Assembly (NCBI GenBank): GCA_021774875.1
Contig: JAJFIP010000214.1
Location: 1-55,087 of the forward strand
Direction of reading: 5' to 3'
Source of the DNA: Emcibacter sp.
Lineage (GTDB): Bacteria; Pseudomonadota; Alphaproteobacteria; Sphingomonadales; Emcibacteraceae
Length of the DNA: 55,087 nucleotides
In this document: positions 12,768-55,087 of the stretch, in pieces
Layout of the letters: every line of letters begins with the position of its first letter
How positions within the stretch are numbered: position 1 is the first letter of the stretch
Notes under the pieces: generated by a model
Told to the model about the DNA's origin: nothing
Databases searched by the model: none
The model's input: only the letters and a program-made list of their open reading frames with translations
Program-made: the position numbers and the translations under genes

Positions 12768-13598
12768 CTAGTTTCCAAAGATACTTAAGATCGATTGCGG
12801 GGCCTGATTGGCAATGGACAGGGCCTGTATGCCAAGCTGCTGTTTGACCTGAAGTGCCTGCAGGTTGGCACTTTCCTTGGCCATATTGGCATCCACCAGA
12901 TTACCAATCCCTACCTCGATGGTATCGGAGATCAAATCGGCAAAAACGCGCTGGGATTCAAGGGCTTTACCACCTGATCCTAATTTGGTCAGAACCGCAT
13001 TCACATTGGCAAGGGTCGTATCCACATCTGTTAAAGCTGCCACCGCCAGAGTTTCGGTTGCAATAGTCTGCGCCGCCGTGATCAGGACATTACCGCCACC
13101 CAAGGTCAAATTCTGATGGGCGATAGTAATGGTCTGGGTTGCACTGGGGTTTGTGATAGCCACAATAGCATTGGTGCCACCGTCGATAATATTGGTGCCA
13201 TTGAATTCTGAGTTGGCCACTATGATGGTGATTTGGTCGCGCAGGGCGGTAAAATCTTCATTCAATGCGGTCCGGCTGGTGGCATCAAGTCCGGCATCCG
13301 CTGCGGCAACAACCTTTTCTTTCATTTCAATGAGAAGATCTGAGATAGCACCCGCGGCTGCCAGAGCAACGTCGGTAGTACTGATAGACCGGTCCAGACT
13401 CTGTTTAACGGCACTATAGCCCTTCAGGTCGGCCCGCAGTTTCTGGGCGATGGAAAAAATGGCAGCATTATCTTTGGCAGTGGCAACCTTCAGGCCGGTA
13501 TTGATGGCAGTTTGCGATTTTTCCAACTGATTTGTTGTTAAATTCAGGTTGAACAGAGCCGATAATGCAATCGAATTGGTATTTACAGAAAAAGCCAT
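12768..13598 (-). CDS. Flagellin (second copy)
   Basis: A 276-residue flagellin with intact N-terminal (MAFSVNTNSIALSALFNLN) and C-terminal (LGIQALSIANQAPQSILSIFGN) coiled-coil regions and a short Thr/Ala-rich middle. It is very similar to the next copy upstream, so the two are a tandem duplication. The start has an AGGAT ribosome site. I see no sigma-54 promoter in the 140-bp gap to the upstream flagellin, so it may depend on read-through or on an unrecognised promoter. The gap contains a strong hairpin instead. Confidence 0.96.
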   Translation of the reverse strand: MAFSVNTNSIALSALFNLNLTTNQLEKSQTAINTGLKVATAKDNAAIFSIAQKLRADLKGYSAVKQSLDRSISTTDVALAAAGAISDLLIEMKEKVVAAADAGLDATSRTALNEDFTALRDQITIIVANSEFNGTNIIDGGTNAIVAITNPSATQTITIAHQNLTLGGGNVLITAAQTIATETLAVAALTDVDTTLANVNAVLTKLGSGGKALESQRVFADLISDTIEVGIGNLVDANMAKESANLQALQVKQQLGIQALSIANQAPQSILSIFGN

Positions 13599-13656
13599 TT
13601 TTTTATCCTATCTAAGAAATTCTTGCTTTAAATATTCTCACCTGAGTGATTTTACT

Positions 13657-13691
13657 GGAGGGTCTCCGGCAGCTTTTTTCCAGAACCCTCC
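13657..13691 (-). promoter_or_regulatory. Strong hairpin between the tandem flagellins
   Basis: On the minus strand GGAGGGT-TCTGG pairs with CCGGA-ACCCTCC, giving 12 bp with one bulged G and a loop of about 10 bases. No T run follows on either strand, so it is not a standard terminator. It may be an mRNA-processing or leader element of the second flagellin. Confidence 0.5.
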
Positions 13692-13738
13692 GACTTACAT
13701 GTTACTTTCAGAATGCACTCAATCTATTTTCCGTGTCT

Positions 13739-14569
13739 CTAATTTCCGAAGAGGCTGAGGATAGACTGGGGTGCCTGATTGGCAATGGACAGTGCCTGTA
13801 TGCCAAGTTGCTGCTTGACCTGCAATGATTGCAGATTGGCACTTTCCTTGGCCATATTGGCATCCACCAGATTCCCGATCCCGACCTCGATGGTATCGGA
13901 TATTTTATCGGCAAATATACGCTGGGATTCCAGTGATTTACCACCAGCACCGAATTTGGTCAGAACTGCATTGACGGTGGCCAGAGTGGTATCAATCTGG
14001 GTAAGTGCTGTCGCAGCCAGTGTCTGAGTGGTAATTGTCTGTGCTGCTGTAATAAGAATTACGCCACCACCCAAGGATAAATTCTGATGGGCGATGGTGA
14101 TGGTCTGGGTTGCATTGGGATTAGTGATCGCCACAATCGCATCCGCACCACCATCAATCAGATTGGTACCGTTGAATTCAGCATTGGCGACAATAACTGT
14201 GATTTGATCACGCAGAGCCTGAAAATCTTCATTCAATGCGGATCGGCTTGTGGCATCAAGACCGGCATCTGCGGCCGCAACTGATTTTTCTTTCATTTCT
14301 ATAAGTAGGTCAGAAATGGCACCTGCAGCAGCAAGGGCGATGTCGGTGGTACTGATGGACCGGTCCAGACTTTGCTTGACTGCACTATAACCTCTTAAAT
14401 CAGCCCGCAGTTTTTGCGCGATTGAGAATATCGCCGCATTGTCTTTTGCCGATGAAATCTTCAAACCGGTATTAATAAGAGTCTGGGTCTGTTCCAAATC
14501 CCTGGTCGTAATATTCAAATTTAGCAGGGCCGATAGGGCACTGGCATTTGTATTAACTGAGAAAGCCAT
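13739..14569 (-). CDS. Flagellin (third copy)
   Basis: A 276-residue flagellin starting MAFSVNTNASALSALLNLN and ending ANQAPQSILSLFGN, with the same compact layout as its downstream neighbour. The ATG at 14569 has a perfect GGAAGGAGAG ribosome site and gives the canonical N-terminus; the 16-residue upstream extension in frame is rejected. A sigma-54 promoter at 14642-14657 predicts a leader of about 60 bases containing a hairpin. It is probably the main, temporally controlled filament protein, followed by a second copy and a PseH-like gene. Confidence 0.96.
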   Translation of the reverse strand: MAFSVNTNASALSALLNLNITTRDLEQTQTLINTGLKISSAKDNAAIFSIAQKLRADLRGYSAVKQSLDRSISTTDIALAAAGAISDLLIEMKEKSVAAADAGLDATSRSALNEDFQALRDQITVIVANAEFNGTNLIDGGADAIVAITNPNATQTITIAHQNLSLGGGVILITAAQTITTQTLAATALTQIDTTLATVNAVLTKFGAGGKSLESQRIFADKISDTIEVGIGNLVDANMAKESANLQSLQVKQQLGIQALSIANQAPQSILSLFGN

Positions 14570-14607
14570 TCCGCTCTCCTTCCTATTGTTGCATTCTGAA
14601 CATGTTG

Positions 14608-14625
14608 TATTCCACATACGGAATA
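14608..14625 (-). promoter_or_regulatory. Hairpin in the leader of the third flagellin
   Basis: TATTCC and GGAATA form a perfect 6-bp stem around a six-base loop, between the predicted sigma-54 start (about 14631) and the ribosome site. It is a candidate FlbT-responsive leader element by analogy with Caulobacter flagellin mRNA. Confidence 0.45.
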
Positions 14626-41860: not shown

Positions 41861-41903
41861 TTTTCCCTTTAATAGCAATCGGTTACTGATTTTCTGTTTT
41901 TAA

Positions 41904-42017
41904 GTGTAACGTGCTGCGTGGTTTAGGGTAATTATACAGTTAATTTAGGTATTCTCGAGCAGAGGCTTCAGGTGTAACGCGCCGCCTGATTTAGGGCAAT
42001 TATACAGTTAATTTAGG
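41904..42017 (+). repeat. Two 46-bp direct repeats downstream of tRNA-Met
   Basis: Units at 41904-41949 and 41972-42017 match at 41 of 46 bases, with a period of 68 bp. Both end in AATTATACAGTTAATTTAGG. No coding frame explains them. They follow a tRNA, a common integration point, so they may be scars of an integrated element. No copy of the tRNA 3' end was seen by eye. Confidence 0.8.
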
Positions 42018-43340: not shown

Positions 43341-43445
43341 GCAAAAGGTGGTGTAATTTTAAATGCTTATTGACAGAATTCTATAGCATAGAGTTTGGCA
43401 AAAGTTAATGTGTTAAAGCCCGGCAAAGGGGTCAGACTGTACGCT

Positions 43446-43474
43446 TGAGCCGAATAGGCATGTTAATCGGCTCA
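43446..43474. promoter_or_regulatory. Distal operator of the Fic gene
   Basis: TGAGCCGA and TCGGCTCA form a perfect 8-bp inverted repeat with a 13-bp spacer. An identical-arm copy lies 44 bp downstream, next to the Fic start. Confidence 0.75.
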
Positions 43475-43482
43475 TAAATCAT

Positions 43483-43511
43483 TTGAATTTGAGCCGAATA
43501 GTTGGTATAAT
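43483..43511 (+). promoter_or_regulatory. Sigma-70-type promoter of the Fic gene
   Basis: TTGAAT at 43483-43488, 17 bases, then a perfect TATAAT at 43506-43511. The -10 lies inside the proximal operator. Confidence 0.75.
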
Positions 43512-43518
43512 CGGCTCA
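43490..43518. promoter_or_regulatory. Proximal operator of the Fic gene, overlapping its promoter
   Basis: Same arms TGAGCCGA/TCGGCTCA and same 13-bp spacer as the distal copy. The spacer contains TATAAT (to 43511), so a bound repressor would block the promoter. It ends 31 bp before the Fic ATG. Confidence 0.8.
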
Positions 43519-43549
43519 TGAAGGTATAAAAATAATATGAAAGCAAGAG

Positions 43550-44653
43550 ATGCAATATATTTGGCAGAGAAAAGAATGGCCTAATTTCACTTGGGATACA
43601 GATGCCGTTGAACAGAATGCATATGCTTATGCACTGGACGCCAGCAGTCTTGTCGGCGAAGTAAAACACCTGTCAGACATAGAAAAAACAGATGCTTTGA
43701 TTGACCTTATGGTCTCAGAAGCCGTGAAAACATCACAAATTGAAGGCGAAAATCTTGACAGAGAAGACGTTCGTTCATCCATCCGCAATCAGCTAGGTCT
43801 AAACAAAGAGCCTGAGACAGTCGGTGACCCTAAGGCTAACGGTGTTGCCGCATTGATGATTTCTGTCAGGGACAGCTTTTCAGAAGAGCTAACAAAGGAA
43901 CGACTTTGTCAGTGGCAGGATCAAATTATTGTTGGTCGATATGAGCGAAGTAAGATGGATGTAGGAAGATGGCGTGCTAATATTGAACCCATGCAGATTG
44001 TCTCAGGGGCGATTGGCAAAGAGAAGGTTCATTATGAAGCGCCGCCATCATCACAAGTACCAGAGGAAATGCTTCTCTTTATCAAGTGGTTTAATGACAG
44101 CAGAGATATTAAGGGGGCTGTCAGGGCTGGCATTGCACATTTGTATTTTGAGTCTATTCATCCATTTTCTGACGGCAATGGTCGTATTGGTCGCGCTATA
44201 TCTGAAATTGCCCTATCTCAGGAACTTGGTCATCCCGCACTTTTGAGTTTATCAACGACCATTCAGGGGAGGCGGCATGAATATTATGATTATCTATCGC
44301 GTGCCAGTTTGGGTGATCTTGATATAACAGAGTGGCTACTATGGTTCACAGAGCTTGTACTGGAGTCTCAGATACAGGCTAAGGATCAAATTGCCTATGT
44401 ACTTTCGAAAGTACGTTATTGGGACAGATATACAAATTTATTTAATGATCGTCAGGCAAAAGTTTTAAACAGAATGCTCCGTGAAGGGATAGAAGGGTTC
44501 AAGGGTGGTATCAGCGCGCAAAAATACATGAAAATGACAAATTGCTCAAAAGCGACAGCCACCCGTGACTTGGTTGAATTATTAAATATTGAAGCAATCA
44601 AGAAGATGGAAGGCGGCGGACGTAGTACCAGCTATGTTGTACGTCTTTTATAA
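43550..44653 (+). CDS. Fic-family protein with N-terminal inhibitory helix and C-terminal HTH
   Basis: A 367-residue Fic protein. The active motif HPFSDGNGRIGR starts at residue 204 and is intact, so AMP transfer (AMPylation) is likely. TSQIEG at 61-66 fits the (S/T)xxxE(G/N) inhibitory motif of class II Fic proteins, placed before the Fic core. The last 70 residues (SAQKYMKMTNCSKATATRDL) look like a winged helix. Two identical-arm operators before the gene suggest that the protein, or a partner, represses its own promoter. The target is unknown. Confidence 0.92.
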   Translation: MQYIWQRKEWPNFTWDTDAVEQNAYAYALDASSLVGEVKHLSDIEKTDALIDLMVSEAVKTSQIEGENLDREDVRSSIRNQLGLNKEPETVGDPKANGVAALMISVRDSFSEELTKERLCQWQDQIIVGRYERSKMDVGRWRANIEPMQIVSGAIGKEKVHYEAPPSSQVPEEMLLFIKWFNDSRDIKGAVRAGIAHLYFESIHPFSDGNGRIGRAISEIALSQELGHPALLSLSTTIQGRRHEYYDYLSRASLGDLDITEWLLWFTELVLESQIQAKDQIAYVLSKVRYWDRYTNLFNDRQAKVLNRMLREGIEGFKGGISAQKYMKMTNCSKATATRDLVELLNIEAIKKMEGGGRSTSYVVRLL

Positions 44654-44743
44654 ATATAGTTTAAATTTTTTGGCGATAGCCAAGTAAAAAACCAGACTAT
44701 CGCTATCTTTAGAAAAATAGCTACTATTAGTCCAGATACAGAG

Positions 44744-44760
44744 AATTTATCTCATAATCG
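44744..44760 (+). repeat. 17-bp direct repeat, left copy
   Basis: AATTTATCTCATAATCG recurs exactly at 46324-46340, directly next to the end of the IS6 remnant. The pair brackets the MITE and the ATPase gene. Confidence 0.7.
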
Positions 44761-44804
44761 TCGTTTGGTGATTATTTGATCTAGGGTGCCGTACGAGTAA
44801 TAAG

Positions 44805-44945
44805 GGGGCTGTCACACTAACTGCTTTTAGCCAATAATACCAGAAATGTTCAAATTCTACATTATTATTTTTAAATGACTTAAGAGATTTTAATTTCCTC
44901 CAAAATGATGAAAATAGTTGATTTTAGAGTTAATGTGACAGCCCC
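44805..44945. mobile_element. MITE-like element with 18-bp terminal inverted repeats
   Basis: Ends GGGGCTGTCACACTAACT (44805-44822) and its inverted partner at 44928-44945 match at 17 of 18 positions. The 105-bp interior is AT-rich with no ORF. A third, imperfect copy of the right end lies at 44967-44984 (15 of 18). No target duplication was seen. The rest of the 44654-45015 gap shows no gene. Confidence 0.7.
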
Positions 44946-45015
44946 GATATAAATATTGGAGCAACAAGTTAATTTGACAGTGCCTGACATACTCCTTACA
45001 AGGCCGGTTATATGG

Positions 45016-46179
45016 TCAAATTTCTGAGATAATCTTCATCATATTGTACAGGCTAACGGCTTCAACAGCATCACTCATAGGAAAGCTATCTTTGCCACTA
45101 TGTATCACAAATTTACGGTCTGGTTTCAAGTCTTCGCAAGCTGTGTAAAAACCTCTGGAAAGCTTAGGTACAGAGCTTTGTTTTATCTCTATAGCCCATA
45201 TGCCTTCTTTGTCCATATCAAGAATAAGATCAATCTCAGCGCCACCTTTGGTGCGGTAAAACCCCATTGATATCAGCTTAGGTAGCAGACCAGAGATATT
45301 TTCAATGACATAGCCTTCCCAGCTTCCGCCAGAAACGGGGTGCCCCAACAGATCATTGACGGTTTCAATATTTAACAAGGCGTGCGTTACTCCACTGTCC
45401 CGTACATATACCTTTGGTGATTTTACAAGACGTTTACCTTGATTGCTATGCCATGGCTGAAGCTTTCTAACTAACAGTAAATCAACCATAAGGTCTAGGT
45501 ATCTACCTGCTGTAGAACTACTGACATCTAGGCCACGTGCTAGCTCAGAAGCGTTAAACAAACCACTTTGCTTATGTGCCAGCATTGTCCAGAAACGCCT
45601 CAATGTTTCTGCTGGAATACGAGGGCCAAGTTGAGGGATATCGCGTTCTAAATACGTGCGGATGAAATCCTGCCGCCAGTCAAGGCTAGCTTCATCATCG
45701 GGCGCAAGAAAGCTCTCTGGAAAACCACCCCTATTCCATAATTTATGGATGTCATTTTGGTTTATTTCCTGAATGTTGAGTGGGTGTAACTCCAAATAGG
45801 ATATACGACCAGCCAGTGTTTCGCTTGATTGTTTCAAGAGTTCTATGGATGCAGACCCCAGCAACAGAAAATGACCATACTTTCGACCATTTCTACGGTA
45901 TTGATCAATAATGCCGCGTAAAGGTGCAAAAATTTCTGGAGCTTTTTGAACTTCGTCAAAAATAATCAGCTTATCTTTGTTTAATTCACAAAATCTCTGA
46001 ACATCTTTAATCTTGACAAGGTCACGAGGGTTTTCAAAATCCAGATAAACAGCGTTGCGTTTATCACCAAGCTCTCTGGCTAGTGTTGTTTTGCCAACCT
46101 GTCGAGGCCCCGTTAGAGCTACAGCAGGGTTTCTATCCAGCATTTTCTCAAGTTTTTTGTGTAATTGTCTTTTTATCAT
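45016..46179 (-). CDS. AAA ATPase with DUF4143 domain
   Basis: A 387-residue protein. Walker A GPRQVGKTT lies at residues 24-32, Walker B KLIIFDEVQ follows near 70, then LLLGSASIELL. A C-terminal DUF4143-type region (GSWEGYVIENI, KGGAEIDLILD, IEIKQS) resembles a PD-(D/E)XK-like fold. Such genes are common in mobile regions; their function is unsettled. It stands alone between a MITE and an IS6 remnant. Confidence 0.88.
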   Translation of the reverse strand: MIKRQLHKKLEKMLDRNPAVALTGPRQVGKTTLARELGDKRNAVYLDFENPRDLVKIKDVQRFCELNKDKLIIFDEVQKAPEIFAPLRGIIDQYRRNGRKYGHFLLLGSASIELLKQSSETLAGRISYLELHPLNIQEINQNDIHKLWNRGGFPESFLAPDDEASLDWRQDFIRTYLERDIPQLGPRIPAETLRRFWTMLAHKQSGLFNASELARGLDVSSSTAGRYLDLMVDLLLVRKLQPWHSNQGKRLVKSPKVYVRDSGVTHALLNIETVNDLLGHPVSGGSWEGYVIENISGLLPKLISMGFYRTKGGAEIDLILDMDKEGIWAIEIKQSSVPKLSRGFYTACEDLKPDRKFVIHSGKDSFPMSDAVEAVSLYNMMKIISEI

Positions 46180-46340: not shown

Positions 46341-46742
46341 GGCATTGTCAAAAGAAACTGAAGTTGGTCAATGAGGCGTTAATTTCAAATGATTTATGCC
46401 GCAAGAGATTGCCATGCAGTTAAAGCATCTGAACGGAATTCTTTGAAAGTATGTCGATCTATTAAGTGGCGTTCTCCGTTAAAGTGGTTGTATATTTGCG
46501 CATGAAGTGAAGTGAATTTTGCTGCTTCGCGCTGCCCTCCGGGTCTGAAGGGTCTCCTCTTTTCTAAAGCCCTGCATGGCATATTCACGTCGTCGGAAAG
46601 GTAGGTGACTATTCTTAGCTCGATTGTTTAATCGACCTCCGGCTTCTTGCTTGTTTTGGCAACCCAGTTCTTTCATGGCAGCTTTATAAGACCTGAGTTT
46701 ATCTGTGACGATAGCCGTTGGCCGTCCATAGCGCTTGATGGG
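46341..46742 (-). mobile_element. Truncated IS6-family insertion sequence
   Basis: The right end begins with GGCATTGTCAAAAG at 46341, like IS6-family terminal repeats. Only the C-terminal half of the transposase remains and similarity stops near 46742. The other end is missing. Confidence 0.75.
46394..46742 (-). pseudogene. IS6-family transposase remnant
   Basis: The first part reads IKRYGRPTAIVTDKLRSYKAAM, then LNNRAKNSHLPFRRREYAM. The second part, in another frame, reads FTSLHAQIYNHFNGERHLI to a stop at 46394. A frameshift lies near 46550. The usual catalytic Glu (NRAENSH) is Lys here. N-terminal half lost, so it is inactive. Confidence 0.85.
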
Positions 46743-46950
46743 GAACACTCCTGTATATGGACGACTTTTGGAACAAATCAGGAGACACATAGAGTTAGGT
46801 GGCGAAAGACTAAAGACACAGAATTTACCAAACGGTGAAAAATATTATCAATGGCGATTACGCACACAAACTACTCCCGCACCAAAACCAGAAGAAATTC
46901 ATCAAATATCTCATTGTCGTGAGGTTACCACCAAAACGCCTGCCGTGTCG

Positions 46951-47055
46951 GTGCAGATAGACCTTGTATTAAGTGCGTTATTTATGACGATATGGCGGCG
47001 GAAGCCCAAGTTAAAGGTAATTATTCACACCAACCAATGGGGTCCATCTCTCTGA
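46951..47055 (+). pseudogene. IS3-family transposase fragment
   Basis: About 34 residues (DLVLSALFMTIWRRKP, then KVIIHTNQWG) resemble the IS3-type OrfB core where WRRKP is followed by H-S-D-Q-G-S. The D is Asn here and the frame ends at once. A short decayed fragment. The upstream part of the same frame (46735-46950) is not recognisable. Confidence 0.5.
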
Positions 47056-47095: not shown

Positions 47096-47776
47096 TTATT
47101 TAAGGGTGTTTTTTTGATTTGAAGTCGTGCTAAATATATGTAGGCTAGGAACATCAGGTGTAGGTTCATTAATTTCTGTGTCAACGATACTTGCAATGAT
47201 GCCTCTGTAAAAAGCCCACACTTGTTCATTTACCCGCTCAGGAAAATTAACCTCGACAATTAAAATACCTCTTAATAAATGCAGCCCCATTTCAAGTCGT
47301 GCTCTAATATTAGCGCGTTCCACTGCTTCAGCACCATAAACGGAAATAAATAATCGGTTCATACTATCACGGACAAGTTGACCTAATTCTCTGCAAGCAT
47401 TACCCAGATGTGGATCTGTACGTCCGGCCAAATCAAGTTCAATTTGTACAAGAGCCATCTTGCCATAAACATTCTGTTTCAGAAGGTCAAATAGCGTTTC
47501 TGTAATATTTTCGGACTTTGCCCTTTTGATCAGACTTTCAATTTTTGTACAATGTTCCGTAATCAAATGCTCTAATGCTTGAACGACTAGTGACTCTTTT
47601 GACCCAAATAAATGAAGATAAGACCCTCTGCTCACACCTGAACGTCGGACTATTTCCATTGATGTGGTTCTTGCATATCCAACAGCATAAATACACTCAA
47701 TAGCAGCATCTAGGAGTTTGTACCTTGTTTCAATACTTCGCGCTTGTTGTGGCGAGGTGCCTTTTCTTATCACCAT
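47096..47776 (-). CDS. TetR/AcrR-family transcriptional regulator
   Basis: A 226-residue regulator. The N-terminal HTH reads RYKLLDAAIECIYAVGYARTT, then IVRRSGVSRGSYLHLFGSKESLV, the TetR signature. The C-terminal ligand domain is typical in length. It is divergent from the decarboxylase operon; the 319-bp gap holds the first copy of a duplicated promoter/operator segment. It probably represses that operon in response to its substrate, and perhaps the hydrolase gene at 53756 too. Confidence 0.92.
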   Translation of the reverse strand: MVIRKGTSPQQARSIETRYKLLDAAIECIYAVGYARTTSMEIVRRSGVSRGSYLHLFGSKESLVVQALEHLITEHCTKIESLIKRAKSENITETLFDLLKQNVYGKMALVQIELDLAGRTDPHLGNACRELGQLVRDSMNRLFISVYGAEAVERANIRARLEMGLHLLRGILIVEVNFPERVNEQVWAFYRGIIASIVDTEINEPTPDVPSLHIFSTTSNQKNTLK

Positions 47777-47896: not shown

Positions 47897-48083
47897 TTTC
47901 ATATTTGTTGGGCCTGATTAAAATTATACATCATTGACTAATCACCATTGACTAATAATATATAATATTTTATAAACTTTAAAATATTGAAAATGAACGA
48001 ACATGTTTTTACTGGTTCGTTTATGCAAAAGATTCAAGTTAACGAGAATCGCTACAAACTATTAGTGAATATTGGGTGGAGAG
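47897..48083 (+). repeat. Duplicated regulatory segment, copy 1
   Basis: This ~187-bp stretch recurs at 53529-53717 with roughly nine in ten bases identical and a 2-bp length difference. It holds a promoter (TTGACT-N17-TATAAA), an AACGAAC/GTTCGTT inverted repeat (47996-48021) and GATTC-N10-GAATC around GTTAAC (48031-48050). It ends 12 bp before the decarboxylase start. Confidence 0.88.
47948..47976 (+). promoter_or_regulatory. Promoter of the decarboxylase operon
   Basis: TTGACT (47948-47953), 17 bases, TATAAA (47971-47976). A second CATTGACTAAT lies 15 bp upstream as a direct repeat. The AACGAAC/GTTCGTT dyad falls just downstream of the predicted start, a suitable repressor site. Confidence 0.7.
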
Positions 48084-48095
48084 TAAGACAAATTT

Positions 48096-48923
48096 ATGAG
48101 TTATTCTTTTTTAGGAGATCAAATTTATCGTATGCCTACTCATTTCGGAGGCTCGCTTGGTCCTCGGCAAGGGGTGGGAGGTAGAAAATTTGATTGTTTA
48201 ACTTCACCAAAACAAACTATTATAAGGGCAGCTTTTAAGGCTAATACCGCCCATTTGGCGCAGCATTTACCTTCTGGTTTTATACCTGATGGCTCGGGGA
48301 TTATTTATTATTCTTTTGTTTGCATTACAGAAATTGAATGGCTTGCTGGTCGTGGCTACAATACTTTTGGAGTATCTACGCCTGCGATATATAAGGGGGG
48401 AGAAACTGTAGCGGGGGAATTTCTTTTCGTATTGTGGGAGAATATGGCAGATCCTATTATTACAGGACGAGAGGATCTAGGTTTTTCAAAGGTTTACTGC
48501 GATTTGCCCGAGCCGTTATTTCAAGGGAATGATGTTTTATGCCGGGCTAGCTGGGACGGTCATCAATTTGCCTCTTTGCGGCTCACGGGACTAAGTTCCG
48601 CCACATCTTTTGATATTCCTGAGAATTTGTCATCTGATGGTACATTGCATTATAAATATATTCCAAAAACTGGGTGTGTAGGTGAGGCAGATGCAGCATA
48701 TCCTGTCATAACGCCAGATGGAAATACTAATTTTAAGGTCGACCAATTTCTGGTTGCTAAAGATGCAAAGTTGGATTTCTTTGAATCTAGTTGGGAACAA
48801 TTGCCTACGCTTATTCATATTGTTGATGCCTTGTCTAGCTTAGATATTGGCGAATGCGTTGGTGCGACAATAATGAGGACTAGAGGTGCAAAGGATTTGA
48901 GCGACCAGCGCATTCTTCGGTGA
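48096..48923 (+). CDS. Acetoacetate decarboxylase-family protein
   Basis: A 275-residue protein with the family start YRMPTHFGG and the active-site segment GREDLGFSK, where Lys132 corresponds to the Schiff-base lysine of acetoacetate decarboxylase. It would remove CO2 from a beta-keto acid. It is first in the operon with an aldehyde dehydrogenase and a 3-hydroxyacyl/carnitine-type dehydrogenase, so the substrate may be the beta-keto acid made by the latter. Start ATG 48096 has only a distant GGAGAG. Some family members do aldol-type chemistry instead. Confidence 0.82.
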   Translation: MSYSFLGDQIYRMPTHFGGSLGPRQGVGGRKFDCLTSPKQTIIRAAFKANTAHLAQHLPSGFIPDGSGIIYYSFVCITEIEWLAGRGYNTFGVSTPAIYKGGETVAGEFLFVLWENMADPIITGREDLGFSKVYCDLPEPLFQGNDVLCRASWDGHQFASLRLTGLSSATSFDIPENLSSDGTLHYKYIPKTGCVGEADAAYPVITPDGNTNFKVDQFLVAKDAKLDFFESSWEQLPTLIHIVDALSSLDIGECVGATIMRTRGAKDLSDQRILR

Positions 48924-48986
48924 TGTTTCTTGGGGGAGGGCATTTGGAGTATTTTTATACACAGGGTTGAATGTAGGGATTTTGTA

Positions 48987-50498
48987 ATGACAGAAAATGC
49001 TATTAATAATACGGATTGGGTATCAATGGCGGCTAGTGTCAACTTTGAAACGCGGCCATTCATTAATGGAGTTTATGTCAAGTCGCGGAGTAATGCTGAA
49101 TTCTGTACTAAAAACCCGGCAACAAGGAAGAAGTTAGCTGTTTTTGCTGATTGTGGCGTATGGGATGTGGATGCTGCGGTTGTTGCCGCCCGTTCAGCAT
49201 ATCAAGGGGAATGGCGAAAGGCTTCCCCTGAACGACGAAAGATACTGCTGCTTGCATTGGCGCACAAAGTCCGCGAAGCAAGTAGTGAGCTTGCTATGTT
49301 TGATTGTATGGAAATGGGTATGCCTATTTCTATGGCACTGCAACAGGTGAAACAAGCGGCTGATTTTATTCAATATTATGCTGAACTGGCGGATAAAATA
49401 TATGGTGAAGTAGCGCCTACGGATCATGCCAATGTATTGGCTATGACTTATATGCAGCCTAGAGGAGTTGTGGGAGTTATATCACCTTGGAATTATCCGT
49501 TGTTGACAGCAGCCTTGGCTATTGCCCCAGCTCTTTCTGCGGGAAATACAATAGTATCAAAGCCATCTGAGCAGTCACCTTCGTCAGTTTTGAAACTGGC
49601 AGAGTTGTCAATAGATGCAGGATTGCCCGCGGGTGCATTAAACGTAGTTCCCGGTTTAGGTGAACATGCGGGAGCAGCGCTTGCGAGTCATATGGATGTG
49701 GACAAAATGCATTTCACGGGTTCGACTTCTGTTGGTCGTCAACTAATGGTATATGCAGGTCAGTCTAACGGCAAGCCTGTTATGTTAGAGGCAGGCGGAA
49801 AATCTCCACAAATTGTATTTGAGGATGCCGTTGATATTGAGGGTTTGGGTGAATCTCTTGTTCAGTCGGCGTTTATAAATTCAGGACAACTGTGTGTCGC
49901 ACGGACACGTTTGATTGTGCATGAAAAAATCAAAAACCAGATTGTTGAGGAAATTTATCGCGCAGTCAAGAATGTTTTTACCATTGGCGACACGCTAGAT
50001 ACTTCTGTGAATTTTGGTCCAATTTCAAGTCAGGTTCAGTATAAACGGGTAGAAGACTATATGAAGATAGGTCAGGAAGAAAGGGCCGACCTTCAAGTGC
50101 TAGAGGTATCGGGGAATAAGCCAGAATGTGGTTATTATGTGCAGCCAGCTCTTTTTGTAAATGCACGTAACGATATGAGAGTTTCGCAAGAGGAAATCTT
50201 TGGGCCAGCAATGACTATTATTAGCTTTAAAACTGAGGTTGAGGCTGTTGCGCTAGCTAATGATGTGCGCTATGGGCTGGCCGCAACGGCCTGGACTCGT
50301 GATGTTGGCAGGGCGCGTCGTTTGGCGCGTGACTTGGAAGCGGGCAGGGTGGATATTAGGACTTCGGCCTCTTCTGGTGCCAACTTGGCAGCGCTTTCAG
50401 CGGAACCATATGGTGGATCGGGCTATGGTGTGCTTGGTGGTATTAGGGGGCTTGATCCTTATATGCGTCTCAAGGGTGTGCAGATTATTACAGAGTAG
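48987..50498 (+). CDS. Aldehyde dehydrogenase (NAD(P)-dependent)
   Basis: A 503-residue ALDH. All key residues are seen: Asn169 in PWNYPLL, Lys192 in SKPSEQ, Glu268 in LEAGGKSP and the nucleophile Cys303 in NSGQLCVA. The usual E-L-G-G is E-A-G-G. It resembles betaine-aldehyde/aminoaldehyde dehydrogenases. ATG 48987 after TAGGGATTTTG is preferred to a start 19 codons upstream. It oxidises an aldehyde to the acid; the natural substrate is unknown. Confidence 0.93.
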   Translation: MTENAINNTDWVSMAASVNFETRPFINGVYVKSRSNAEFCTKNPATRKKLAVFADCGVWDVDAAVVAARSAYQGEWRKASPERRKILLLALAHKVREASSELAMFDCMEMGMPISMALQQVKQAADFIQYYAELADKIYGEVAPTDHANVLAMTYMQPRGVVGVISPWNYPLLTAALAIAPALSAGNTIVSKPSEQSPSSVLKLAELSIDAGLPAGALNVVPGLGEHAGAALASHMDVDKMHFTGSTSVGRQLMVYAGQSNGKPVMLEAGGKSPQIVFEDAVDIEGLGESLVQSAFINSGQLCVARTRLIVHEKIKNQIVEEIYRAVKNVFTIGDTLDTSVNFGPISSQVQYKRVEDYMKIGQEERADLQVLEVSGNKPECGYYVQPALFVNARNDMRVSQEEIFGPAMTIISFKTEVEAVALANDVRYGLAATAWTRDVGRARRLARDLEAGRVDIRTSASSGANLAALSAEPYGGSGYGVLGGIRGLDPYMRLKGVQIITE

Positions 50499-50511
50499 TT
50501 GAGGAATAGAA

Positions 50512-51519
50512 ATGAAGTTTGGCGTGAAACCAGCTGAAGTAAAAAAAATTGGTCTTGTGGGTGCTGGATTGATTGGCACTGGCTGGGCTATACATTTTCT
50601 TGCGCAAGGCCTAGATGTGGTTGTAACAGACCCTAGCCCAAAGGCGGAAAATAAAATGCGTGATATGGTTTCTCGTGCGTGGCCGATTATGCAAAACTTT
50701 CCCCAAGGGGAGGGGGCGTGCCAGGAAAGATTGATTTTTTCCACGAATTTGAGGGATGCTATTGAAGATGTTGATTTTATACAGGAATCAACACCAGAAG
50801 AGGTGGTGTTAAAAAGTAAAGTGATGACTGCTATCGGTGATGTGGCACGTCCAGATGTGGTGATTGCCTCTTCAAGTTCAGGATTTATGCCAAGTAAACT
50901 ACAGGCAATGTGTAAAAACCCTGAGCGTGTTATCATTGGCCATCCTTTTCACCCAGTTTATTTGATGCCTCTTGTCGAAATAGTGGGGGGCGAGAAGACA
51001 TCCCGGAATACAATAAAATGGGCGATGGAGTTTTACGAATATTGGGGCAAGGAACCATTGTACTGTCGAAGTGAAATCGAGGGTCATTTGGGTAATCGGT
51101 TACAAGCGGCAGTTCGCAATGAGATGTTACATTTGGTTAGTGAAGGGATAGCTACGCCCGAAGAGATAGACACAGCACTTTGTAGTGCGGCTGGCCTGCG
51201 CTGGGCGCTTTTTGGTCCATCAATGATTTTTCGGTCAAATTGTGGTGATAAAGATATACGTGAGGCCCTTCAAGCTTGGGCACCGGTATTTAGATTGCCA
51301 CATAGCAAATTAGCCGCTCCAGACATGTCGAAAGGCCTTATTGATCAGATGACAAAAAGTATAAATAAACAAGTCGATGGGCACAGTGCAGAAGAAATTT
51401 GTGCAATGCGAGATGAATTTTTAGTAGGTGTACTTAAATTACGGAAGCAAATTGAAGTTAAATACGGTTTTCGACAGGGGCGGTTTCAGTCGACTGTCGA
51501 GGCAGATGTGTTTCAGTAA
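50512..51519 (+). CDS. 3-hydroxyacyl-CoA dehydrogenase family, L-carnitine dehydrogenase-like
   Basis: A 335-residue enzyme. The NAD-binding start is KIGLVGAGLIGTGWAIHFLA. The stretch IIGHPFHPVYLMPLVEIVGG is characteristic of the carnitine 3-dehydrogenase branch, with the catalytic-type His in HPFHP. The C-terminal helical domain is intact. It likely oxidises a 3-hydroxy acid to the 3-keto acid, which the decarboxylase-like protein could then use. It starts 13 bp after the aldehyde dehydrogenase. Confidence 0.82.
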   Translation: MKFGVKPAEVKKIGLVGAGLIGTGWAIHFLAQGLDVVVTDPSPKAENKMRDMVSRAWPIMQNFPQGEGACQERLIFSTNLRDAIEDVDFIQESTPEEVVLKSKVMTAIGDVARPDVVIASSSSGFMPSKLQAMCKNPERVIIGHPFHPVYLMPLVEIVGGEKTSRNTIKWAMEFYEYWGKEPLYCRSEIEGHLGNRLQAAVRNEMLHLVSEGIATPEEIDTALCSAAGLRWALFGPSMIFRSNCGDKDIREALQAWAPVFRLPHSKLAAPDMSKGLIDQMTKSINKQVDGHSAEEICAMRDEFLVGVLKLRKQIEVKYGFRQGRFQSTVEADVFQ

Positions 51520-51544
51520 ATTAGATTAAGAAATATAGAGAAAT

Positions 51545-52018
51545 ATGGCGGATATTAAGGTTGCACGGTTAGCAGATCACCCTGAATTTTTATATTTGAT
51601 TGTGCAATGGGTTCATGATCAATGGAGCAAATATAGTGGCCGTACTTATGAAGAAACGCAGGCCCAATTTGAGCATGAAGGTCGGTCGGATGAATTGCCT
51701 GTTTCTCTTATTGCGATAGAAGACGAATGTGTTATAGGGCTGATTTCTCTAAGGGAAAAAGAAACCATAGACCATGATCCCCTTGTATCCCCTTGGCTTA
51801 GTAATGTGTATGTGACAGAAGACGCCAGAGGTAAAAATGTAGCGAGTAAATTGTGTAAAGCCATGGAAGGCGTTGCCAAGGAAATGGGTTTTTACACAAT
51901 TTATCTGGGATGTGAAATCGAGAGTGATTCACTCTACCATCGTCTGGGTTATCAAGAATATAACAGAACTCATCATCAGAACCAGACTGCATATCTTCTG
52001 CGTTTGAACTTGGATTGA
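51545..52018 (+). CDS. GNAT-family acetyltransferase
   Basis: A 157-residue GNAT protein: IAIEDECVIGLISL, then SPWLSNVYVTEDARGKNVASKLCKAME (the acetyl-CoA loop is RGKNVA), and GFYTIYLGCEIESDSLYHRLGYQEY. It probably acetylates a small molecule or amine. Its place in the operon, between the dehydrogenase and the permease, suggests action on the substrate or an intermediate. Substrate unknown. Confidence 0.85.
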   Translation: MADIKVARLADHPEFLYLIVQWVHDQWSKYSGRTYEETQAQFEHEGRSDELPVSLIAIEDECVIGLISLREKETIDHDPLVSPWLSNVYVTEDARGKNVASKLCKAMEGVAKEMGFYTIYLGCEIESDSLYHRLGYQEYNRTHHQNQTAYLLRLNLD

Positions 52019-52070
52019 AAACTATCATAAATCACATAAGAAAAATAAGGGATAATGTAAAGGATGGGCA

Positions 52071-53462
52071 ATGAGCAGTAATTCAGAGTTGGGGCGCAGC
52101 CTATCGTTAACGCAGTTTTTCTCAATCTCTTTTGGGGCTGCTATAGGGGTCGGTTGGATTATGCTAATGGGAGTATGGCTTGCAAAGTCAGGTTCCTTTG
52201 GCGCAGTGCTAGCTTTTTTGATTGGCGGATTAGCCGTAGGCTGGGTAGCACTTGGGTATCTTGAACTTGCCACAGCAATTCCAAAACCGGGTGGGGAAAT
52301 GATATTTACCTTTATGGTGTTTGGACCGCGGGTGGGCTTTGTTGTCGGTTGGTTTTTGGCGGCTGGTAATGTTGCAATATCAGCCTTTGAATCTATTTCC
52401 ATTGGGTGGTTAGTATCTACTATTGTTCCCCTATCGGATGGGCATGTTATTTATAGTATTCTAGGTGAAGATGTATATCTTTTACGCGTGGTTATAGGGC
52501 TTTGTTTTCTTGTGCTTATGGGGTGGTTAAATTATCGCGGGGCTGTGTTTGCTGCGTCTGCCCAGAATATATTCGTTGTGCTATTTCTGGCGGCTGCGAT
52601 TGTTTTTATTTTTACTGGATTATTTAAAGGGGACGTTGCTAACCTTATCCCTAAATTTGGGGGAACGACAACTAAGGATGCTATTGTTGGGGTCGTCAGT
52701 ATGTTAGCCATAGCACCTTTCTTTACGCTTGGTTTTAACTATGCGTTGCAAGGTATCGCGGAACGAGCATCAGACGTAAAGCTGAAAAGTATAGCGCATG
52801 TTATCATGCTTTCTATTTTGGCCATTGTGGTGTTTTATGCTCTTGTAATTATTGCAGCGGCCATGTCAGCACCTCGTGAGATCATTTTATCAGCAGATTT
52901 ACCAACAGCAGCTGCGTTTAGAGCTTTGCTTGGAGACGGCTTTCTGGGAAAGGTTGTATTAATCGCGGGCCTTTTCGGATTGTTAACAACATGGAATGCT
53001 GTGTTGTTTGCAGCTAGCCGAATTGTTTTTGAACTTAGTGCCATGGGTTTGCTTCCTGCTGTGTTTTGTAAGGTTCATCCTAAATATGGGTCACCCCATA
53101 TTGCGGCAATATTTGTAACAATGGCCAGTTTGCCGGGTGTTTTCCTTAGCAGTGCTGCGTTATCGCCCATTGTAGGGGCCGCTAGTATATGTGCGATGTT
53201 TGCACTGTTTGTAACATGTTTAGCGGTATATGCACGTAAGAGTGACACTGACTCAGTGACGTCACAATTCCATATGCCAGGAGGGTCTTCTGGTCGTGCT
53301 ATGACAGTTGTAATTGGTGCATTGTTATTATTGATTGCTATTTTTGAGCCCTTTGTTGACGGCTCTGATTTTTATTTTCCTCTGACATGGATAATAGTGA
53401 TTGTTTGGGGGGCGTTTGGCTGGTGGTTGTGGAAACCACATAAGAGCGAAAATCAAAATTGA
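52071..53462 (+). CDS. APC-superfamily amino acid/amine permease
   Basis: A 463-residue transporter with about twelve membrane helices. The N-terminal FSISFGAAIGVGWIMLMGVW is the APC helix-1 pattern (G-A-x-I-G), followed by PKPGGEMIFTFMVFG. It probably imports the compound degraded by the operon, likely an amino acid or amine. It starts 52 bp after the GNAT gene and is the last gene before the second regulatory copy. Confidence 0.88.
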   Translation: MSSNSELGRSLSLTQFFSISFGAAIGVGWIMLMGVWLAKSGSFGAVLAFLIGGLAVGWVALGYLELATAIPKPGGEMIFTFMVFGPRVGFVVGWFLAAGNVAISAFESISIGWLVSTIVPLSDGHVIYSILGEDVYLLRVVIGLCFLVLMGWLNYRGAVFAASAQNIFVVLFLAAAIVFIFTGLFKGDVANLIPKFGGTTTKDAIVGVVSMLAIAPFFTLGFNYALQGIAERASDVKLKSIAHVIMLSILAIVVFYALVIIAAAMSAPREIILSADLPTAAAFRALLGDGFLGKVVLIAGLFGLLTTWNAVLFAASRIVFELSAMGLLPAVFCKVHPKYGSPHIAAIFVTMASLPGVFLSSAALSPIVGAASICAMFALFVTCLAVYARKSDTDSVTSQFHMPGGSSGRAMTVVIGALLLLIAIFEPFVDGSDFYFPLTWIIVIVWGAFGWWLWKPHKSENQN

Positions 53463-53528
53463 AGGGAATGTTAAATGAGTAAGCCGTTGGATTTTGAATA
53501 GCCCTCAGTTTGTTAGACACCTTTGGGC

Positions 53529-53717
53529 TTTCACATTTGTTGGACCTGTTCAAAATTATACATTATTGACTAATCATTATTGACTAATAATATATAATAT
53601 TTTATAAACTTTAAAATACTGAAAATGAACGAACATGTTTTTTACTGGTTAGTTTAATGCAAAAGATTCAAGTTAACGAGAATCGCTACAAACTATTAGT
53701 GAATGTTGGGTTGAGAG
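53529..53717 (+). repeat. Duplicated regulatory segment, copy 2
   Basis: Matches 47897-48083 closely. The promoter and the GATTC...GAATC element (53665-53684) are fully conserved. The AACGAAC dyad has a changed right arm (GTTAGTT) and one extra T. Located 39 bp before the hydrolase ATG. Confidence 0.88.
53580..53608 (+). promoter_or_regulatory. Promoter of the hydrolase gene (same as copy 1)
   Basis: TTGACT (53580-53585), 17 bases, TATAAA (53603-53608), the same elements as in copy 1. Confidence 0.7.
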
Positions 53718-53755: not shown

Positions 53756-55087
53756 ATGAAAAGTAGAATTAATATGGTTTCATCAAGAAATATTATAAAA
53801 GAAATTTCTGTTTTCGTAGCAGGGATAGCATTCTTTTTTTTAGGCATCTTTTTCTCTTTATCTTTGAGTATTGCGCAAAATACTCAAACAGAGAATAATT
53901 TACAGAAACTACTAGAGCAATCCCTTGTTAAAAATAACGTTGCTGGTGCGAGTGTGGCTATTTGGAAAGGCGATGAACTGCTAACGGCTGTTGCCGGAGT
54001 AGTAAATATAAACACTGGCGTACCGGTTACAACAGATACAATCATGCTTATAGGATCAATAACTAAAGTATTGACGACGACATTGGTTATGCAATTGGTT
54101 GATGAGGGTTTGATTGATATTGATAAGCCGCTGCAATATTATTTACCTGATTTTACTCTTGCGGATAAAACCGCTGCTGCGGAAATTACCGTTAAGATGC
54201 TCTTAAATCATACCAATGGCATTGATCATGAAGGAAGTATAGGCCTCAATACTGATACTCCTGATAAAGAACGCATCATTGATCTGATAAATAGAGCGCG
54301 TACATTGGGGCAGGTTCATGCTCCTGGTGAGGCACTGTCCTACAGTAATGTTGGGCTAGTTCTGGCGGGTTATCTTGTAGAACGGATTACACAAAAAAGT
54401 TGGTATGATTTGGTTCGGGAACGCATTTATAAACCCCTTGAAATGAACCATGCGATTACGCAACCAGAGAATGCTTTGTTATACCGGGCGACTATTGGGC
54501 ATTTTCTAGATCCTGATACGGGCCATAACATTCGTGCAAATGCCCCTTTTCTTAGTCCAAAATATGCACCAGCTGGTGCAACTATTATGATGTCTGCGAC
54601 TGACCTTGTTGCTTTTGGGCGGGCACATATACTTGATGGGAAGGCGCATAACGGCAAGAATTTTTTATCAGAGAATAGCGCGCAGTTAATGCGTACTGAG
54701 ACTATCAGGACGCCTTTGGCTGCCTTTGGGTTGGGCTGGGGAATATTTGAAGGCGGTGCTATTGGACACGGGGGAGGTGGAGTTGGCATATATTCTTACC
54801 TATATGTTCACCCGGAAAAAAAAGTTGTTGCAGTAGTTATGACGAATAGTGCTCATGGGTATGCCGTTATAGAAGAAGTACTGCAATCCTTATATAAGGA
54901 AATAGATGTTGTTCCAAAAGGATCCAGGAGCAAAGCTATTATTGCAAAGGCTGAAGATAAAGCGATTGATGCCTTGCCATTAGTTGGTGAATTTGAAGGG
55001 CTCGGTCATCATCATATCGTGACAGAAGAGAACGGTAAATTGATGATTTCATCAATTTGGTATAAGGCAGAAGGATCCAAGGAAAAA
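53756..55087 (+). CDS. Serine beta-lactamase-family hydrolase (S12), cut by window edge
   Basis: The frame is open for 444 codons to the last base. A hydrophobic N-terminal segment (VFVAGIAFFFLGIFFSLSLS) is a signal peptide or anchor ending near SIAQ. The three motifs of class C beta-lactamase-like enzymes are seen: SITK (Ser nucleophile and Lys), YSN, and HGGGG near residue 341. After about residue 400 an extra domain begins. Such proteins act as esterases, amidases or D-aminopeptidases. The shared promoter with the catabolic operon suggests it releases or processes the substrate in the periplasm. Confidence 0.9.
   Translation, partial: MKSRINMVSSRNIIKEISVFVAGIAFFFLGIFFSLSLSIAQNTQTENNLQKLLEQSLVKNNVAGASVAIWKGDELLTAVAGVVNINTGVPVTTDTIMLIGSITKVLTTTLVMQLVDEGLIDIDKPLQYYLPDFTLADKTAAAEITVKMLLNHTNGIDHEGSIGLNTDTPDKERIIDLINRARTLGQVHAPGEALSYSNVGLVLAGYLVERITQKSWYDLVRERIYKPLEMNHAITQPENALLYRATIGHFLDPDTGHNIRANAPFLSPKYAPAGATIMMSATDLVAFGRAHILDGKAHNGKNFLSENSAQLMRTETIRTPLAAFGLGWGIFEGGAIGHGGGGVGIYSYLYVHPEKKVVAVVMTNSAHGYAVIEEVLQSLYKEIDVVPKGSRSKAIIAKAEDKAIDALPLVGEFEGLGHHHIVTEENGKLMISSIWYKAEGSKEK

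Follow-up and report, generated by a model that had tools for sequence, protein, structure and literature searches.

Gene content of the locus

The window, i.e., the whole stretch of DNA analysed here, comprises 55,087 nucleotides from Emcibacter sp. (contig JAJFIP010000214.1, positions 1 to 55,087) and belongs to a 3.9-Mb draft genome of 398 contigs that is 99% complete. Toward its end, a catabolic operon beginning with an acetoacetate decarboxylase-like gene is flanked by a divergent tetR-family gene and by a serine hydrolase gene, with the following features:

47096..47776, − strand: tetR-family regulator gene, divergent from the operon (PF00440, E = 2.4e-11)
47897..48083, + strand: repeat copy 1, putative promoter and leader of the decarboxylase operon (alignment, BLAST, flank extension)
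47932..47958, + strand: tandem CATTGACTAATNA, 14 bp apart, over the −35 region of copy 1 (sequence)
47948..47976, + strand: promoter-like TTGACT-N17-TATAAA of copy 1, −35 at 47948-47953 and −10 at 47971-47976 (by sequence alone)
48031..48050, no strand: imperfect palindrome GATTCAAGTTAACGAGAATC (GATTC-N10-GAATC) of copy 1, candidate operator (not above shuffles)
48096..48923, + strand: acetoacetate decarboxylase-like gene, ADC family (PF06314, E = 1.4e-18)
48987..50498, + strand: aldehyde dehydrogenase (PF00171)
50512..51519, + strand: L-carnitine dehydrogenase-like 3-hydroxyacyl-CoA dehydrogenase family protein (PF02737)
51545..52018, + strand: GNAT acetyltransferase (PF00583)
52071..53462, + strand: APC-type amino acid permease (PF13520)
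53529..53717, + strand: repeat copy 2, between the amino acid permease and serine hydrolase genes (alignment, BLAST, flank extension)
53580..53608, + strand: promoter-like TTGACT-N17-TATAAA of copy 2, −35 at 53580-53585 and −10 at 53603-53608 (likewise)
53665..53684, no strand: the same palindrome GATTCAAGTTAACGAGAATC (GATTC-N10-GAATC) of copy 2, candidate operator (not above shuffles)
53774..55087, + strand: serine hydrolase of beta-lactamase fold, cut by the contig end (PF00144)

By combining a carnitine dehydrogenase-like protein with a decarboxylase, an aldehyde dehydrogenase and a transporter, the locus resembles carnitine-type/beta-keto acid catabolic clusters with ADC-family decarboxylases. 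Unlike in these, however, none of the cluster's proteins reaches the NCBIfam equivalog cut-off, the best match of the carnitine dehydrogenase-like protein being PRK07066. The serine hydrolase gene has a further in-frame ATG at 53756, upstream of the 53774 start, and the genome has many PF00144 proteins (17 matches). Just past tetR, an IS6/IS240-type transposase remnant and a DUF885 gene fragment are found (46479-46790, − strand, and 46735-47055, + strand), the IS6-type remnant showing that the region was rearranged in the past.

A duplicated putative promoter and leader region

The initial annotation had described the segments 47897-48083 and 53529-53717 as near-identical and non-coding. Pairwise alignment corroborates this, with coordinates correct to the base: 176 of 189 aligned columns are identical, and the copies, which have the same orientation, differ by 11 substitutions and two 1-base indels (BLAST E = 6e-75 in a search of the own genome). 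The longest identical run is 48 bases, and when 13 differences are placed at random, a run of at least 48 nt also arises in 26% of cases. Anchored extension past the roughly 187 bp, in both directions, does not outscore shuffled flanks; hence, the ends of the repeat are sharp. It is the only long non-coding repeat within the window, the other long repeat lying within two adjacent flagellin genes (12768-14617) that have a 300-nt stretch in common at 80% identity.

A conserved coding segment was considered and rejected. An open frame starting at 53657 in copy 2 does join that of the hydrolase, whereas the frame running through copy 1 is not that of the decarboxylase, and the two base changes within the open frame both alter residues. 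Likewise, the repeat has no Rfam match and its leader folds are ordinary (z of −1.4 and −0.6), which contradicts an RNA element.

In both copies, the TTGACT-N17-TATAAA motif claimed previously is found with unchanged −35 and −10 hexamers, as TTGACTAATAATATATAATATTTTATAAA, and may well represent the promoter of both units. Such promoter-like matches are frequent by chance in AT-rich DNA (37 found versus 23.6 expected). A tandem CATTGACTAATNA pair similar to that of copy 1 also overlaps the −35 region in copy 2 (53564-53590). Beyond the promoter, each copy holds a leader of about 100 nt; with a start about 7 bases past the −10 hexamer, the decarboxylase transcript would have a leader of about 113 nt and the hydrolase transcript one of about 140-160 nt. 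Copy 1 terminates in GGTGGAGAG, a likely ribosome-binding site 12 bases before the decarboxylase ATG at 48096, so that the repeat would span promoter, leader and ribosome-binding site. This spacing fits copy 1 only. The copy 2 counterpart is GGTTGAGAG, in which GAGAG is kept but is separated by 38-56 bases from the start codons of the hydrolase at 53756 and 53774, and translation of the hydrolase must therefore use another site.

Distribution of the repeat and of related clusters

The genome harbors exactly two copies, both in this one locus; a search for a third picked up nothing but AT-rich stretches of 16-20 bases, as expected by chance. A set of 98 further genomes of the order, including 15 from the genus itself, yielded no true copy. 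Across the class, 385 sampled genomes gave, apart from the own genome, nothing longer than AT-rich pieces of about 60 bases, most of these in small genomes. The plasmid collection gave no copy, the phage collection a single 30-base match but no true copy, and an exact match to the promoter was absent from viral contigs. Hence, a dispersed mobile repeat, which the initial annotation had named as one outcome speaking against a local regulon, is contradicted at all of these levels. The repeat, its exact ends, its restriction to two copies and the order of the genes around it are direct observations.

Related gene clusters exist elsewhere. At one locus (L017), all genes run in one direction and encode a hydrolase, a decarboxylase, an aldehyde dehydrogenase and a carnitine dehydrogenase-like protein with 46, 65, 69 and 62% identity, respectively, to the proteins of the window, the PF00144 hydrolase gene coming immediately before the decarboxylase gene in the same orientation. 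In a genome of the same genus (G011, locus L035), another PF00144 hydrolase gene precedes a decarboxylase homologue by 45 bases, again on the same strand. The roughly 187-bp repeat is absent from both relatives. As hydrolase and decarboxylase genes are adjacent in two other genomes, the operon and the hydrolase are plausibly linked in function; with 17 PF00144 matches in the own genome, part of this adjacency could be due to chance. The same-genus genome carries two decarboxylase paralogues 12 kb apart (G011:C1:535000-574999, L035 and L036), surrounded by transposase-like, peptidase, amidohydrolase and oxidoreductase genes, and one of the paralogues is followed by an apparently truncated aldehyde dehydrogenase gene.

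Candidate operators and the divergent TetR-type protein

The GATTC-N10-GAATC block, described before as fully conserved, is indeed intact in both copies, and no further site with 0 or 1 mismatch occurs in the own genome. Its conservation carries little weight, however, since the 13 differences, placed at random, would leave a 20-bp block unchanged in 23% of cases, in addition to the 26% given above for the longest run. Copy 1 alone has a perfect version of the dyad reported near the start site (AACGAAC...GTTCGTT, within 47994-48023); in copy 2, it is broken, with one arm reading GTTAGTT and a spacer one base longer. When judged against 300 dinucleotide-shuffled sequences, neither dyad was stronger than the best palindrome of the shuffles: the best one in copy 1, which is AT-rich, was matched by 26 of 300 shuffles and the best one in copy 2, the GATTC palindrome, by 136 of 300. 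Moreover, the two palindromes are copies of each other and count only once as evidence. A palindrome-like motif was not found upstream of the related decarboxylase genes.

The tetR product bears its DNA-binding domain (PF00440) at residues 21-65, and 319 bp separate the gene from the decarboxylase start. In the class sample, no relative was found at E below 1e-20; the order yielded a single weak match (32% identity), and plasmids and viral contigs gave none. At the L017 and G011 decarboxylase loci inspected, a tetR homologue was not found. Members of the TetR family are frequently regulators of neighbouring enzyme operons, and in a systematic study divergent family members less than 200 bp from a neighbour controlled that neighbour, whereas beyond 200 bp three of four tested regulators did not and the fourth was an activator; exceptions such as AtuR at 280 bp are known (PMC3511530). 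With its divergent tetR-family gene, metabolic operon and shared intergenic region, the locus is similar to tetR-tetA and to AtuR of Pseudomonas aeruginosa (PMC3511530), but differs from both in its wider gap, in an operator that is a candidate only and in having its control region repeated at a distance of 5.6 kb. The divergent protein is a natural candidate regulator at about even odds, and its control of the repeat copies is possible. The earlier proposal that it governs both copies is weak: the dyads are within chance expectation, the start-site dyad differs between the copies, the gene does not accompany the decarboxylase genes inspected elsewhere, and the gap exceeds the 200-bp range in which control is reliable.

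Origin and role of the duplication

The reading we favor, with a probability of about 0.68, is that a promoter-leader cassette of about 187 bp was copied locally and that operon and hydrolase gene are expressed together. Accordingly worded as a mechanism, a promoter-plus-leader segment would have been duplicated within the locus in the same orientation; the decarboxylase-aldehyde dehydrogenase-carnitine dehydrogenase-like-acetyltransferase-permease operon would start from copy 1, and the serine hydrolase gene after the operon from the near-identical promoter of copy 2. The duplication probably puts both units under the same control; they would be co-expressed, and the hydrolase would act in the same pathway as the operon.

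Alternatively, the repeat might be a neutral scar of rearrangement, for example of a larger tandem duplication mostly deleted since, with copy 2 having no regulatory role. The decayed transposase and DUF885 fragment adjoining tetR, the distribution of the 13 differing columns as if without constraint and the alteration of both the start-site dyad and the GGTGGAGAG site in copy 2 are in line with such an origin. Nevertheless, copy 2 lies precisely between two genes, its promoter is directed towards the hydrolase, the −35/−10 core is unchanged, and homology stops at the 187 bp, so we consider a scar the less likely origin. Sharp ends and a decayed transposase nearby would also suit a small non-autonomous mobile element (MITE-like or mobile promoter) present in two copies by happenstance; this is very unlikely, as both genomic copies lie in one locus, relatives and mobile-element collections hold none, and terminal inverted repeats or a target-site duplication, as in a MITE, were not seen when the ends were read by eye. 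Misassembly through the repeat, in a draft of 398 contigs and on a contig that ends inside the hydrolase gene, is hardly to be expected either, because copies with 13 differences and no identical run beyond 48 bases should be separated by ordinary assembly.

The local promoter-leader cassette is compatible with a more specific model, in which the divergent TetR-type protein binds both copies, at GATTC-N10-GAATC or at the dyad upstream of it, and keeps both units repressed as long as no metabolite of the pathway releases it. To this model we give somewhat less than even odds. The divergent and adjacent position of tetR, the palindrome kept in both copies and nowhere else in the genome, the habit of the family and the AtuR precedent argue for it; dyads no better than shuffled sequence, the broken upstream dyad in copy 2, two sites amounting to one copied site, the 319-bp gap, and the lack of close TetR relatives and of a similar motif at related decarboxylase genes argue against it. 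Doubtful, at a still lower level, is the full scenario of a self-contained two-unit regulon, in which a cassette of promoter, operator and leader was copied and placed a hydrolase of the pathway under the TetR-family regulator of the operon, and in which recombination between the direct repeats could also delete or amplify the 5.6-kb operon. Of the regulon originally proposed, the undispersed duplication of a promoter-leader region before two plausibly linked units stands, whereas TetR control is a reasonable conjecture.

Putative mobile promoters are promoter sequences that recur within one genome or in several. The present repeat is similar in that a promoter region near-identical by sequence precedes two non-homologous genes of one genome, but it is unlike them in having two copies that flank one operon in one locus, with no spread. 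Duplication of promoters before unrelated genes is treated as promoter propagation or mobile promoters in PMC8049555 and PMC11111574, which cite Matus-Garcia et al. (2012, Nucleic Acids Res 40:10032), reportedly a study of this subject. Thus, the principle of promoter reuse by duplication is already known, and the locus adds a modest new example of a local, two-copy kind. If both copies are active, a gene would have joined a pathway through duplication of an entire control region instead of evolving a promoter anew. Recombination between the direct repeats may also lead to loss or amplification of the operon.

Further upstream, between tRNA genes and the IS remnant, the region 43550-46179 encodes a protein with a Fic-like central motif recognized by eye (HPFSDGNGRIGR) and an AAA/DUF4143 ATPase, and is possibly an island. 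Near the tRNA genes, short non-coding direct repeats are present at 41899-42017 and 43445-43522 (51 nt at 86% and 34 nt at 79% identity).
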